A stretch of DNA of 64,000 nt, taken from positions 62,001 to 126,000 of the forward strand of contig SMNH02000005.1 of NCBI GenBank assembly GCA_006383075.2. The letters run 5' to 3'. Of this stretch, positions 15,830 through 21,425 are shown piece after piece. Under the pieces are notes generated by a model. It was not told the origin of the DNA and made no database searches. It saw nothing but the letters and a program-made list of their open reading frames with translations. Position numbers and translations under genes: made by a program. The DNA is from Kordia sp. TARA_039_SRF. Lineage in GTDB: Bacteria; Bacteroidota; Bacteroidia; Flavobacteriales; Flavobacteriaceae. Each line of letters starts with the position of its first letter. The stretch's first letter is position 1.

Positions 15830-18289
15830 ATGAGTGAGACAAAGTTTTTAAATATGGACAGTTTGTCATTTCAATCTATTGATGAAGATGCGGAATTGAT
15901 TCCGTTAATGACGCCCGAAGATGAAGAAGAAATTAATCGAGAAGAATTGCCACAAACTTTACCAATTCTTCCGCTGCGAAATACCGTTTTATTTCCTGGC
16001 GTAGTGATTCCAATTACGGCTGGACGCGATAAATCTATTCAACTGATTAAAGATGCGAATAATGGCGGAAAAGTCATCGGAGTAGTTTCTCAAAAAGATG
16101 AAGCTGTTGAAAATCCGAAATTAGAAGACATCAACACATTAGGAACCGTAGCGCGAATTTTACGCGTATTGCAAATGCCTGATGGAAACACTACAATTAT
16201 CATTCAAGGAAAAAAACGCTTTGAAGTAGATACCTTATTGCGTGATACACCGTACATGGAAGCTACGGTAAAAGAAGTTCCTGAAACGCGTCCTGAAAGA
16301 GATGACGAGGAGTTTACGGCAATTTTAGACTCCATTAAAGATATTGCATTACAAATTATCAAGGAAAGTCCAAACATTCCTTCGGAAGCTTCTTTTGCCA
16401 TTAAAAACATTGAAAGTTCGTCGTTCCTTATCAACTTCATTTCATCAAATATGAACTTGACGGTGAAGGAAAAACAAGAACTTTTGGCAATAACCGATTT
16501 AAAGTTACGTGCACTAGCGACGCTAAAAAGCATGAATTTGGAGATGCAAAAGCTCGAATTGAAGAACGATATTCAATCCAAAGTACGCAACGATTTAGAT
16601 CAGCAACAACGTGAATATTTCTTGCATCAGCAAATGAAGACCATCCAAGAAGAATTGGGCGGCGGCTCGTACGAGCAAGAAATTGAAGAAATGCGAAAGC
16701 GTGCTAAAAAGAAAAAGTGGAACGAAAAAGTAAAGAAGCATTTTGACAAAGAATTGGCAAAAATGCAACGTATGAATCCACAAGTTGCCGAATATTCCAT
16801 ACAACGTAACTATTTGGAGCTCTTTTTAGACTTGCCTTGGAATGAATTTAGCAAAGACAAATTTGATTTAAAGAAAGCACAAACCATTCTTGACCGTGAT
16901 CATTCTGGTTTGGAAGACGTGAAAAAACGTATCATAGAATATTTAGCAGTATTAAAACTGCGTAATGATATGAAATCGCCTATTTTATGTTTGTACGGAC
17001 CTCCTGGAGTTGGTAAAACCTCGCTTGGAAAATCGATTGCAGAAGCGCTGGGCAGAGAATATGTGCGTATTTCGCTTGGCGGATTGCGTGATGAAGCCGA
17101 AATCAGAGGACATCGTAAAACTTATATCGGAGCGATGCCAGGACGTATTATTCAAAGTTTGAAAAAAGCAGGAACATCCAATCCTGTGTTTGTGTTGGAT
17201 GAAATTGATAAACTATCTAGCAGTCACAATGGCGATCCGTCGTCTGCGATGTTGGAAGTATTAGATCCTGAGCAAAATACCGAATTCCACGATAATTTCT
17301 TGGAAATGGGTTACGACTTGTCAAAAGTGATGTTTATCGCAACAGCCAATAGTTTAAGTACTATTCAACCAGCATTGCGAGACCGAATGGAGATTATCAA
17401 TGTGACAGGATATACGACGGAAGAAAAAATTGAAATCGCAGGAAAACATCTTTTAAAGAAACAATTAAAAGAACACGGACTTACCGATAAAGATTTAAAA
17501 ATAGGGAAGAAGCAACTCGAAAAAATCGTGGAAGGTTACACACGTGAAAGTGGTGTGCGCGGATTGGAAAAGCAAATTGCTAAAATGGTACGTTATGCGG
17601 CAAAATCTATTGCGATGGAAGATGCGTACGATAAAAAAGTGACCAATGCTATTATTGAAGATGTATTAGGTCCTGCACGCATGGAGCGCAATAAATACGA
17701 AAATAATGATGTAGCAGGTGTTGTGACAGGTTTGGCGTGGACAAGTGTTGGCGGCGATATTTTATTTATAGAATCTACACTTTCTAAAGGAAAAGGAACG
17801 CTGACCATCACAGGGAACTTAGGAAAAGTGATGAAGGAATCTGCTACGATTGCGATGGAATATATGAAGTCAAACGCAGATGAGTTGGGCATTCAACCAG
17901 AAGTATTTTCAAAATACAACGTACACATTCACGTGCCAGAAGGTGCTACCCCAAAAGATGGCCCAAGTGCTGGAATTACGATGTTGACCTCATTGGTTTC
18001 CTTATTTACACAGAAAAAAGTGAAGAAAGATATTGCCATGACAGGAGAAATCACGTTGCGAGGAAAAGTACTGCCTGTTGGCGGAATTAAAGAAAAAATA
18101 TTGGCAGCAAAACGTGCGGGAATTAAAGAAATCATTCTATGTGCACAAAATGAACGCGATATTTTAGAAATTAAAGAATCGTATTTAAAAGGATTGAAAT
18201 TCCACTATGTAACTGAAATGCGAGAAGTTATAAAACATGCCATTACGGATGAGCCTGTGAAAAACGCAAAAGTATTGTCGGTAGACTAA
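15830..18289 (+). CDS. lon: ATP-dependent protease Lon (endopeptidase La)
   Basis: Homo-oligomeric cytosolic AAA+ protease that degrades misfolded and regulatory proteins. 819 residues. The N-terminal substrate-binding domain begins [19 protein letters not shown] (about 45-63). The Walker A motif GPPGVGKT is at 390-397 and Walker B is FVLDEIDKL. In the C-terminal protease domain the catalytic Ser713 lies in [10 protein letters not shown] and Lys756 lies 43 residues later, matching the Ser-Lys dyad spacing of E. coli Lon. The ATG at 15830 is used; the extra acidic N-terminus is common in Bacteroidota. It is a single-gene unit followed by a terminator. Confidence 0.97.
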
Positions 18290-18424: not shown

Positions 18425-18492
18425 TGTCATTCCGCACTTGATGCGGAATCTGTTTTCTATGCTGTCAGATTCCTGCCTTCGCAGGAATGACA
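18425..18492. repeat. REP-like palindromic repeat between lon and the radical SAM gene
   Basis: The ends TGTCATTCC and GGAATGACA are inverted. Inside lie two hairpins: TTCCGC...GCGGAA (18430-18447) and TTCCTGC-CTTC-GCAGGAA. The layout resembles REP or MITE-type elements seen in many genomes. It lies where two genes converge, like the three larger elements in this window, but the sequence is different. Confidence 0.75.
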
Positions 18493-18517
18493 TGGGAATT
18501 CAATTGTAATTTCAGCT

Positions 18518-19729
18518 TTAAACCACACTAAAAAACTCTAAATCCTGTTTATATAAATCTTCAATACTGTCAAAATCTAGAGTATTGAGATAATCGATAA
18601 TTTCGTCAGCGTCCATTTTGGAAATACTGTCGTCGTACATGCTTGGCACCAATTTCATCATGGTATTTTGTATGTGCGAAATCAACAAAATCATGTCTTC
18701 GCAATACACAGACGGATTGTTGAAACCATTTTCCTTTTTGTGACGATGTACTAAACGACCACCGCGACAGACACTTGCAACGGGACATTCCAAACACTTT
18801 GTGCACAGTTTTTCCATGCTGTCTTGAAAATACAATTTTCCTAAAGGTGATTGTATGATTTCTTCAAAATCGTTGTTGACAACATTCAAACTCGTTTTGG
18901 TGAAGTTTTCGCCGCAGCCTTTTAGCGAATCAACAGCTTCAATATCGCCATTGGTTTCTATGACTAAGGCATGTGCTTCGTGACGCGCGATTTTTTGTGA
19001 GCCTAAAATAGCATTGGTCAAACCGTTAAAAAATGGAATAATTGGTCGGTTTTTATCTTGAATCCATAAATCGTATAATTCTATTAGCCATTTTCCCATC
19101 TCTTTTGGTTGATATGGAAAACTGTCATGTGTGTAATCTGGTAATAGAAAATTCACATAATCAGAAGAAATATCGGTTAAGTGTTGATATGTAACTTCCG
19201 CAGATTCGTCTAAATTCATCACACTAATTACAGATACAAACCCAAGTTTGCGTTTGAGCAATTTCAATCCTCGAATTACATCGTCGTAACTGCCATTTTC
19301 TTTGTGATCTTTCCGATACATGTCATGCGCTTTTTTAGTGCCATCTAAACTTACGCCAGGAAAAATTTTATATTCTTTTAGTACTGCAGCCCAATCATCA
19401 TCTATCAAAACGCCGTTGGTTTGCACGTTGTATTCAAACGTAGTTTCAGGGAATAGTTCTTTTAAGCTTTCCGCCTGACGGATAAATTTTCCAAAAAAAG
19501 ACTTGTCAATCAACAACGGTTCGCCACCGTGAAACGTAAAGGTAAACACTTCCTGCGGATGCGCTTTTAAGTAATTTTCCACACGATTGATGATTTGTGG
19601 AATAAGACTTTCCTTCATGAATTTTGGTTGATTCCGAAACGATGTATCGCCCAAATTGTACATAAAACAATACGAGCAATTCAAATTACATCGACTGGCA
19701 ACTTTTAAAACTAAACGATTGAAGTGCAT
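18518..19729 (-). CDS. Radical SAM/SPASM peptide maturase
   Basis: 403 residues from the ATG at 19729; a longer frame from 19777 would start inside a terminator hairpin and is rejected. The radical SAM cluster motif is C14-NLN-C18-SY-C21 (CX3CX2C), which binds the 4Fe-4S cluster that cleaves S-adenosylmethionine. The N-terminus LVLKVASRCNLNCSYCFMYN and the FHGGEPLL motif resemble the FxsB/GrrM-type peptide-modifying enzymes. The C-terminus has a SPASM-like Cys set (CTKCLECPVASVCRGG, then a Cys in YCEDM) for auxiliary clusters. It lies 113 bases after the small peptide gene at 20091-19843, which is probably its substrate. Known relatives form three-residue cyclophanes or thioethers; the reaction here is unknown. 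Confidence 0.88.
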   Translation of the reverse strand: MHFNRLVLKVASRCNLNCSYCFMYNLGDTSFRNQPKFMKESLIPQIINRVENYLKAHPQEVFTFTFHGGEPLLIDKSFFGKFIRQAESLKELFPETTFEYNVQTNGVLIDDDWAAVLKEYKIFPGVSLDGTKKAHDMYRKDHKENGSYDDVIRGLKLLKRKLGFVSVISVMNLDESAEVTYQHLTDISSDYVNFLLPDYTHDSFPYQPKEMGKWLIELYDLWIQDKNRPIIPFFNGLTNAILGSQKIARHEAHALVIETNGDIEAVDSLKGCGENFTKTSLNVVNNDFEEIIQSPLGKLYFQDSMEKLCTKCLECPVASVCRGGRLVHRHKKENGFNNPSVYCEDMILLISHIQNTMMKLVPSMYDDSISKMDADEIIDYLNTLDFDSIEDLYKQDLEFFSVV

Positions 19730-19756
19730 ATAAAAAAAGAGTAAAGTGAAAAATTG

Positions 19757-19817
19757 AAAAAAACAGTTGCTCAACACGTATAACTAAACATGTAAGGCAA
19801 TTTGAAGAGCAACTGTT
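19757..19817 (-). terminator. Intrinsic terminator/attenuator between precursor and maturase
   Basis: Reading leftwards, AACAGTTGCTC (19817-19807), a 34-base loop and GAGCAACTGTT (19772-19762) form a perfect 11-bp stem followed by T's. Most transcripts should stop after the peptide gene, with some read-through into the enzyme gene. Confidence 0.8.
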
Positions 19818-19842
19818 ACGATTTTATGTTTAAATATTAATA

Positions 19843-20091
19843 TTAACCTTCTTGGCGTACAGGCGCATGTTCTACTGGCTCATACGGCAATTCTCCATCT
19901 TTTAAACAACGTCCTAAACGCTCGTGCCAATAATAACCATCTGGACATCTTGGTCCGCCACCGCCAGTTGGGTAGTGAATAATATCATCGATAGGAACAT
20001 CTGCAAGTCCTCCAAAGATGTTGTCTAAATCTTCAATCTGTTTTTCAGATAACGCATCTACTGTTTTGTGTAAAAAAAACTTTTTTTTCAT
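19843..20091 (-). CDS. GG-leader RiPP precursor, partner of the radical SAM enzyme
   Basis: 82 residues, ATG at 20091. The leader MKKKFFLHKTVDALSEKQIE... ends with FGG at residues 26-28, like double-Gly leaders. The putative core is LADVPIDDIIHY, then a Gly run, then a Cys-bracketed block, CPDGYYWHERLGRC (Cys49 and Cys62), and a tail rich in Pro and Glu. The aromatic cluster YYWH next to charged residues is the kind of site that cyclophane-forming radical SAM enzymes modify, though this is inference. The gene is followed by a terminator and then the maturase, an order typical of RiPP loci. No peptidase or exporter gene is adjacent. I do not recognise the peptide family. Confidence 0.75.
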   Translation of the reverse strand: MKKKFFLHKTVDALSEKQIEDLDNIFGGLADVPIDDIIHYPTGGGGPRCPDGYYWHERLGRCLKDGELPYEPVEHAPVRQEG

Positions 20092-20405: not shown

Positions 20406-21425
20406 ATGCAGAAAAAGCTCCTCTTTTCCTTTTTTTTGTTGATGACGACATTGGCTTCCGCGCAAATTGGAGGGCGATATACGTATCAGTTTTTAAACCT
20501 AATTTCGTCACCTCGACAAGCGGCTCTTGGCGGAAAGGTGATTACCAATTATGATAAAGATGTAAATCAAGCATTATTCAATCCAGCAACGATTAATTAC
20601 CGAATGGACAATCAGTTGTCTGTCAATTATGTTAATTACTTAGGTGATGTCAATTACGGTTCTGCTGCGTATGCGTATACTTGGGACAGAAGAGTGCAAA
20701 CCTTTCACGCTGGTGTAACCTATGTTTCGTATGGTCAGTTTGACGGATATGATGTGGAAGGAAATTCCACAGGGACTTTTACAGGAAATGAAGTCGCATT
20801 ATCGCTTGGTTACGCGTACAACATTCCACGAACAGATATTCATGTAGGTGCGAATGCTAAGTTTATCAATTCAAAACTAGAACAATACAATTCCTTTGGC
20901 GGCGCTGTCGATTTGGGAATTATGTATATTAATGAAGAATTGGAATTTAATGTCGCGTTGGTTGCCCGAAACATCGGAATACAATTTACAACTTATGCAG
21001 GCGTGCAAGAACAATTGCCTTTTGAGCTGATTTTAGGATTGTCACAAAAGCTAGAGCACGTTCCAATTCGTTGGCATCTTACTTTTGAAAACTTACAGGA
21101 ATGGAATATTGCATTTGCCAATCCGAACCGTGCAGAGCAATCGATTGAAGGTGGCACTACCGAAGAAAAAGTAGGTTTCTTGCAAAATGTTATCAGACGT
21201 ACCATTGTAGGTGTAGAATTGTTTCCAGACAGAGGTTTTAATATTCGATTGGGGTATAATTTCCGTAGAGGAGAAGAGCTTAAAATTATTGACCAACGTA
21301 ATTTTTCAGGAATTACGGCAGGTTTTGGACTTCGCATCAATAAGCTTAAATTTGATTATACCTACGCACGTTATGCAATTGCAGCCAATACAAGTATGTT
21401 TGGTGTTACGATTAATTTGCAATAA
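20406..21425 (+). CDS. porQ: Type IX secretion system protein PorQ
   Basis: 339 residues. A signal peptide (MQKKLLFSFFLLMTTLASA) is followed by the PorQ signature QIGGRYTYQFLNLISSPRQAALGGKVITNYDKDVNQALFNPATIN. The rest is alternating beta strands ending in an aromatic C-terminal strand, as in an FadL-type outer-membrane barrel. PorQ is part of the type IX secretion system found only in Bacteroidota; with PorU/PorV/PorZ it belongs to the machinery that attaches exported proteins to the surface. It is followed 33 bases later by cmk, an order seen in other flavobacteria. The other type IX genes lie elsewhere. Confidence 0.92.
   Translation: MQKKLLFSFFLLMTTLASAQIGGRYTYQFLNLISSPRQAALGGKVITNYDKDVNQALFNPATINYRMDNQLSVNYVNYLGDVNYGSAAYAYTWDRRVQTFHAGVTYVSYGQFDGYDVEGNSTGTFTGNEVALSLGYAYNIPRTDIHVGANAKFINSKLEQYNSFGGAVDLGIMYINEELEFNVALVARNIGIQFTTYAGVQEQLPFELILGLSQKLEHVPIRWHLTFENLQEWNIAFANPNRAEQSIEGGTTEEKVGFLQNVIRRTIVGVELFPDRGFNIRLGYNFRRGEELKIIDQRNFSGITAGFGLRINKLKFDYTYARYAIAANTSMFGVTINLQ

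Follow-up and report, generated by a model that had tools for sequence, protein, structure and literature searches.

Does the small open reading frame that lies upstream of a radical SAM enzyme gene in this Kordia DNA encode the substrate of that enzyme and, if it does, what would the enzyme make of it? Within the window, by which we mean the whole 64,000-nt stretch of DNA that was analysed, the peptide gene occupies positions 19,843–20,091 on the minus strand and encodes 82 amino acids. The predicted precursor consists of a leader (residues 1–28) that has an N-terminal KKFFLHK and a predicted helix and that ends in F26-G27-G28, a linker that carries P33 and P41-T42, a core loop (C49-x2-G52-x2-W55-x6-C62; codons at 19,906–19,947, minus strand) in which Y53-Y54-W55-H56 lie between the two cysteines, and a variable tail (residues 63–82). 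Its stop codon is separated by 113 bases from the ATG of a 403-residue radical SAM peptide maturase (18,518–19,729, minus strand) with a CX3CX2C motif (C14, C18 and C21) and a reduced SPASM region. The mechanical open reading frame of the enzyme runs from the stop at 18,518 back to a GTG at 19,777; we took the ATG at 19,729 as the start because it is common to the relatives. The initial annotation of this DNA had described the coordinates of the region, the length of the peptide, its FGG leader end and its cysteines around YYWH exactly as we find them, and its inter-gene distance and three enzyme cysteines were confirmed.

Relatives were collected by a scan of the genome contigs (5 loci) and from overlapping samples of 397 family, 11 genus, 296 order, 299 g128 and 395 class genomes, g128 being a genus of the same family that we guess is probably Flavobacterium. 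Removal of duplicates left 45 distinct enzymes, window included, 11 of which had a peptide with GG and the C-x2-G-x2-W-x6-C signature directly upstream on the same strand: those of six Kordia species or strains, of Aquimarina, of Tenacibaculum and of three g128 genomes. One Kordia locus (L019, genome G398) carries two such peptides in tandem, which brings the set to 12 peptides from 11 loci. In a tree of the 45 enzymes, the 11 peptide-linked enzymes formed one side of a single branch (support 100/99), and presence of the peptide required one change, against a mean of 10.1 in shuffled assignments (0 of 500 shuffles as low). Every member of this clade has the peptide (11/11), so that the two genes stay together where this enzyme clade occurs, a check that the initial annotation had proposed. 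The signature occurred in none of the 83 upstream open reading frames listed for the other 34 enzymes, even when F, Y or V was accepted in place of W. One of the 11 loci (L041) comes from a 76%-complete genome in which the enzyme match holds two stops; this enzyme may be broken or misassembled, and the locus was counted for pairing. The neighbouring genes in Aquimarina and Tenacibaculum differ from those in Kordia, and the pair is therefore not kept together only by a fixed locus.

The pair is sparsely distributed, being present in two of the 397 family genomes (both Kordia) and three of the 299 g128 genomes. When the enzyme profile was run at E 1e-90 on the class genomes (395, as a rule with at most four candidates scored in each), no member turned up beyond that of the window's own genome, and the 15 plasmid records with related enzymes hold distant ones (<60% identity). 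In 286 order genomes the peptide profile matched three, two of them members and the third a peptide at locus L073 (E 7.4e-5). An earlier peptide search of 299 family genomes gave four matches at E 0.01, two of which were the window and a near relative. The peptide matches in G164 and G205 (E 0.005 and 0.007) contain stops and were set aside as chance. Judged from the pattern of inheritance, precursor and enzyme form a genuine RiPP-type module that is passed on as a pair.

Thirteen residues are invariant in 12/12 peptides (M1, K2, K3, K9, G27, G28, P33, P41, T42, C49, G52, W55 and C62), with C49, G52, W55 and C62 at fixed spacing, and position 61 is R in ten. Position 39 is always H (nine peptides) or Y (three). 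The initial annotation was thus right about the conservation of the Trp and both Cys, whereas its suggestion of YYWHER as the modified region did not hold for that stretch as a conserved site: position 53 is Y, F, Q or T, position 54 is Y, V or E, position 56 is H, N or S, position 57 is E in five peptides, S in two and H, V, D, T or N in one each, and position 58 is likewise variable, which leaves W55 as the only invariant aromatic residue. The signature is also more than chance, since among 1,331 distinct ATG-start open reading frames of at least 30 aa (144,127 aa, six frames, window and loci L001–L073) it occurred in 12, all of them these precursors.

The seven Kordia peptide genes are under purifying selection, with a dN/dS of 0.31 (simple count, all pairs). 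Split by region, these seven gave ratios of 0.15 (leader), 0.30 (linker), 0.17 (loop) and 0.68 (tail), and the three from g128 gave 0.05 (leader), 0.61 (loop) and 0.77 (tail). Leader and loop frame are thus conserved, whereas the tail varies freely. Conservation of core and leader together, a point raised in the initial annotation, was therefore found in Kordia, whereas the three g128 loops vary outside the fixed residues. The window peptide had no match in NCBIfam, and the matches of other members were weak, each for one of the 12: a CCRG-2 RiPP model (0.0017), two bilirubin reductase models (0.015 and 0.022), a bacteriocin signal (0.13) and a class I lanthipeptide leader (0.38). In the predicted structure of the peptide (mean pLDDT 53) residues 16–25 are helical and residues 53–56 and 61–64 form strands that, weakly, would fit a hairpin. 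PDB matches of the peptide profile to a colicin, a complement factor, an antibody and an R-spondin (E 0.063 to 9) were regarded as chance.

The enzyme belongs to the radical SAM proteins (Pfam PF04055, at 67.4 bits with 29.5 required), and the CX3CX2C cysteines are present in all 25 aligned enzymes, window included. The same holds for C312, C315, C321 and C343 (25/25), and C272 is present in 24 of the 25, other Cys columns being scattered. The 'SPASM-like' cluster of the initial annotation is thus real in its four-Cys part and is reduced, since among these 25 enzymes only C272 is general besides it and the full SPASM set is absent. We take these four residues to be auxiliary cluster II alone, with ligands assigned from sulfatase maturase. 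ChlB, the nearest solved structure, has the same four Cys in alignment and a residue other than Cys at position 272; it was solved bound to its leader and was recovered by phmmer at 3.2e-45, and Foldseek aligned the enzyme model (pLDDT 89) to it at 3.6e-29 (TM 0.80, 29% identity). The K. periserrulae enzyme is 97% identical to that of the window, and the window Kordia is close to this species.

At E ≤1 the enzyme matched 74 NCBIfam families, of which we consider the best 25. These were led by YhhB (NF041707; 2e-88, residues 7–360, 296.8 bits against a cut-off of 445) and FxsB (TIGR04269; 7.3e-81, 272 bits against 370), followed by sulfatase maturase (1.7e-57), XyeB and DynA and, lower, GrrM/OscB (TIGR04261; 8.8e-35, 120.4 bits against 310). 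The earlier description as FxsB/GrrM-like is therefore apt for FxsB, and for YhhB and the ChlB structure, whereas GrrM is more distant. Because none of these best 25 matches reached its curated cut-off, we treat the enzyme as a sister family of the YhhB/FxsB cyclophane synthases; the module is a distinct family, sister to YhhB/FxsB-type systems and without a name in the NCBIfam and Pfam releases searched. Sulfatase maturases form formylglycine, and the sulfatase motif is C-x-P-x-R. The peptides read C-P/A/L/V-x-G and the neighbouring genes scanned were lon, porQ and cmk; Cys oxidation of the sulfatase-maturase type is unlikely.

In Kordia, the pair was found in six of 11 genomes and sits between lon and porQ in 7/7 loci checked (six distinct). 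In the window, lon (15,830–18,289, plus strand; TIGR00763, 933.8 bits against 608) encodes an ATP-dependent protease and is the convergent neighbour, and porQ (20,406–21,425, plus strand; NF033711, 464.7 bits against 220) encodes a type IX secretion component, with cmk beyond it. In the five Kordia genomes that lack the pair, lon and porQ are adjacent, with 254–663 bp between them, and for this reason we take both genes to be unrelated to the module. The earlier statement that no protease or exporter adjoins the pair accordingly stands for a dedicated exporter or leader peptidase and fails for lon, which is a protease gene.

Between the peptide and enzyme genes lies a terminator-like RNA hairpin (19,764–19,815, minus strand), followed on the coding strand by a T run. 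It has 11 outer pairs and is more stable than expected (z −4.41, 0 of 200 shuffles as stable). Folding of three further Kordia loci gave z values of −2.51 (2 of 200 shuffles as stable), −4.95 and −4.61. Six Kordia loci can be aligned over the hairpin, of which the genome has a single copy. It is missing from the output of a terminator scan, presumably for its loop size, since that scan accepts loops of 3–8 bases only. The hairpin probably acts as an attenuator, which would lower the expression of the enzyme relative to the precursor. In all five pair-less Kordia genomes, no relic of enzyme or peptide coding sequence scored beyond shuffles, and in three of them the inter-gene region scored above all 100 shuffles; the stretch of 109 bases that precedes the peptide gene did so in one (L066). 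These traces suggest that the pair was lost in some Kordia lineages, and insertion of the pair beside an older hairpin is a possible alternative.

We next consider how the precursor would be recognized, cut and exported. A motif near the N terminus, [KR][FVY]x[LFI]x[KNRSED], occurs in 22 of the 44 nearest upstream open reading frames (8 of the 11 that belong to the clade and 14 of the other 33); 2,000 shuffles that ignore relatedness gave 1.2 on average and 7 at most. The pattern was chosen after viewing the peptides. Because the nearest frame was picked blindly, it was a non-precursor or a wrongly started frame at a number of loci (L009, L018 and L019 among them), which makes the count too low. 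The motif is offered as a lead, a candidate recognition site of the enzyme, and PDB titles in which ChlB appears with its leader region, or together with an R3A mutant of the precursor, agree with such recognition. By analogy with the solved ChlB–leader complexes, the enzyme would bind the N-terminal end of the leader, an arrangement that we hold to be fairly probable; no RRE domain was among the Pfam matches of the enzyme. The leader ends in GG in 12/12 peptides, and the genome holds five matches to the C39 peptidase domain above its cut-off, three of them in open frames of 733–742 aa and all five on contigs other than that of the window. From these two facts we infer that an unclustered C39-peptidase ABC transporter encoded elsewhere quite likely cuts the leader after Gly28 and exports the peptide.

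The enzyme very probably modifies the core of the precursor. Peptides beside sister enzymes contain aromatic-x-x cores, examples being WGR (L058), WTK (L027), FAK and WTQ (L049), YAE (L046) and HSQ, given here without a count, and by analogy these cores correspond to the three-residue cyclophane pattern; an aromatic-x-x site is present at W55 in 12/12 peptides. Between a thioether and a C(sp2)–C(sp3) cyclophane, we therefore lean towards the cyclophane as the product. The simplest proposal, since W55 is the only invariant aromatic residue of the clade, would be a link from the Trp55 indole to the C-beta of residue 57 (i to i+2); this placement is tentative and, in our estimate, just short of an even chance. 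Cys49 and Cys62 would probably pair as a disulfide after export, closing a stapled beta-hairpin. Taken as a whole, the reading of a W55–57 carbon–carbon link, a disulfide loop and cleavage and export by a GG-type system encoded elsewhere appears reasonably probable. As for the role of the exported peptide, a short-range antibacterial or a surface- or glycan-binding function is a guess.

Several observations count against this reading. The residues found at position 57 include Val and Thr, a variety that is not as expected of an acceptor; a W55 link gives no explanation for the invariant P41-T42 after H/Y39; an invariant Cys pair would also be expected of a thioether; the loop of the three g128 peptides changes quickly outside the fixed residues; the wider family of the enzyme holds other chemistries, among them those of the sulfatase maturases and of TvgB; and the pair is missing from five of the 11 Kordia genomes. 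Room for other explanations comes from the variety at residue 57, from the invariant H/Y-x-P-T and from the Cys pair.

One of these would join Cys49, Cys62 or both to a carbon of another residue, in the manner of sactipeptides or ranthipeptides, with no disulfide. It would account for the invariance of both cysteines, and it draws on two relatives of the enzyme, namely the PapB ranthipeptide maturase family (NF047865), whose match is significant though lower (4e-28), and the thioether former 5why/5wgg, which comes directly behind the sulfatase maturases among the structural neighbours. The PapB match nevertheless reached 98.6 bits against a cut-off of 340, and the cyclophane families score far higher. 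Cysteine pairs are, moreover, uncommon beside the sister enzymes, because only five of their 33 nearest upstream open reading frames have at least two Cys, and three or four of these five probably owe them to a frame start upstream of the true start. By contrast, constant loop spacing that includes a Gly and an aromatic residue is to be expected of a disulfide hairpin, and we consider a thioether product unlikely. The modification might instead lie in the linker, as a cross-link, cyclophane or other, from His/Tyr39 to Pro41 or Thr42, leaving the C49–C62 loop as an unmodified disulfide hairpin. YhhB makes both His and Tyr links (PMC11002830), which would suit a position that is always H or Y, and all 12 peptides keep P41 and T42. 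W55 is, however, equally invariant and has at i+2 a residue with a C-beta hydrogen in every peptide. The i+2 acceptor in the linker would be Pro, for which we know of no precedent, and a linker site is in our judgement improbable. That the peptide is not modified at all, being an ordinary disulfide hairpin for secretion whose gene just happens to adjoin that of the enzyme, would fit the loop, which alone has the spacing of the unmodified domain CBM_14; it fits poorly with a peptide that accompanies a single enzyme clade in four genera (11/11), whose signature is found in no other of the 1,331 open reading frames and whose N-terminal leader motif is common to other precursors of the enzyme superfamily, and we regard it as very unlikely.

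The CBM_14 (peritrophin-A) hairpin has the form C-x2-G-x2-aromatic-x6-C, the same spacing as the precursor loop, which matches the chitin-binding hairpin of 4z4a and that of tachycitin; the precursor differs in having one Cys pair where CBM_14 has several. CBM_14 was listed for five of the 12 peptides, aligned over the loop (best E 0.0035), with scores that all stayed below its gathering score of 22.1 bits (best 17.9), and matched neither the three g128 peptides nor reversed copies of six of the 12. No known domain stood above threshold for the peptide, in line with the initial annotation, and CBM_14 appears below threshold only. With the loop of L011 as a phmmer query, a complement factor ranked first (E 0.024) and the CBM14 protein 4z4a came after it (E 0.17). 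The likeness may reflect convergence on a stable disulfide hairpin, and we treat it as a lead for function, without family membership. At its most specific, this lead would make the mature product a cyclophane-stapled hairpin of chitin-binding type, a disulfide-closed loop of CBM_14 geometry with the link on its central Trp, which after secretion would bind GlcNAc polymers such as the chitin of diatoms or other prey or bacterial peptidoglycan; we rate this as a long shot. If true, it would to our knowledge be the first RiPP on a lectin-like scaffold, and a literature search that combined chitin-binding, cyclophane and RiPP returned no paper.

In this compact family of marine and related flavobacteria, the loop of the substrate has a constant length and contains a single invariant aromatic residue and a single pair of Cys, so that tests for the site of a radical cross-link should be unusually simple. 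A loop that proved to be both disulfide-closed and cyclophane-stapled would offer a doubly constrained, genetically encoded hairpin scaffold. Knowledge of Kordia secondary metabolites is described as acutely scarce, if non-existent, in an mSystems study (PMC10734526). A genome-mining study (PMC11118758) reports in its accessible parts that Kordia is rich in rSAM-modified peptides and lanthipeptides, and its figure draws selected Kordia clusters with labels such as rSAM1, the text in those parts naming no peptide or enzyme family. Among the titles and abstract openings searched, none names this peptide family; subscription papers lay mostly outside that coverage, and an earlier description is possible.

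The module shares features with several known systems. The precursor leader is of the class that we take to be the double-glycine RiPP leaders of Bacteroidota, with which it has in common a predicted leader helix and the GG end. The GG peptide at L073 has a different core, and within 3.2 kb there is no radical SAM gene of this kind beside it. YhhB is the best curated match of the enzyme, with a score below the cut-off; according to PMC11002830, YhhB forms three-residue cyclophanes from Tyr or His to the C-beta of Arg and TvgB is assigned to cyclopropyl formation, whereas the precursor core here is a Cys loop with one Trp. FxsB and ChlB are close by family score and by solved structure, respectively. 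Reference titles quoted by PMC12636437 name ChlB as a cyclophane synthase, and the same paper describes an HExxH domain fused to it; the 403-residue enzyme has none, and its precursor differs from those of FxsB and ChlB in carrying a double-Gly leader. The kind of system is thus known, and what is new is the variant, a double-Gly precursor whose Cys loop holds one Trp.

The genome of the window carries a second, paralogous system besides the main pair of double-glycine-leader precursor and radical SAM enzyme (locus L002, contig C3 of genome G000, positions 291395-292555, minus strand). Its precursor has FGG and a core reading CPVVAVSAKA..YDKIDTFLQA, and its enzyme is YhhB-like, scoring 347.2 bits against the cut-off of 445 for this triceptide maturase family. 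The third component is a 280-aa protein that no family of Pfam or NCBIfam matches with a score above its cut-off. Trios resembling that of L002 also occur at other Kordia loci and at loci of g128 and g241 genomes.

Within the window, the intergenic segment after lon (18425-18495) contains imperfect palindromes, ATTCCGCACTTGATGCGGAAT followed by ATTCCTGCCTTCGCAGGAAT, which have the appearance of either a terminator or a short repeat of the dispersed kind.

At locus L019 (G398), the main-family precursor is duplicated in tandem ahead of a single enzyme gene, and the copies have diverged, differing at the core loop (FYWHSGVQRC versus YYWNVNRGRC). Two tandem precursors also lie upstream of a related enzyme at L042 (G939); aromatic residues are almost absent from their cores besides the HSQTHSQ repeats, and these precursors are candidate substrates for His-based cross-linking. 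At L043 (G826), the upstream ORF is a sister precursor whose core ends in CFAKCDFCEAQWAQA, with three Cys near F-x-x and W-x-x sites; in this it differs from its relatives at L044, L045 and L049, ORFs that contain no Cys.
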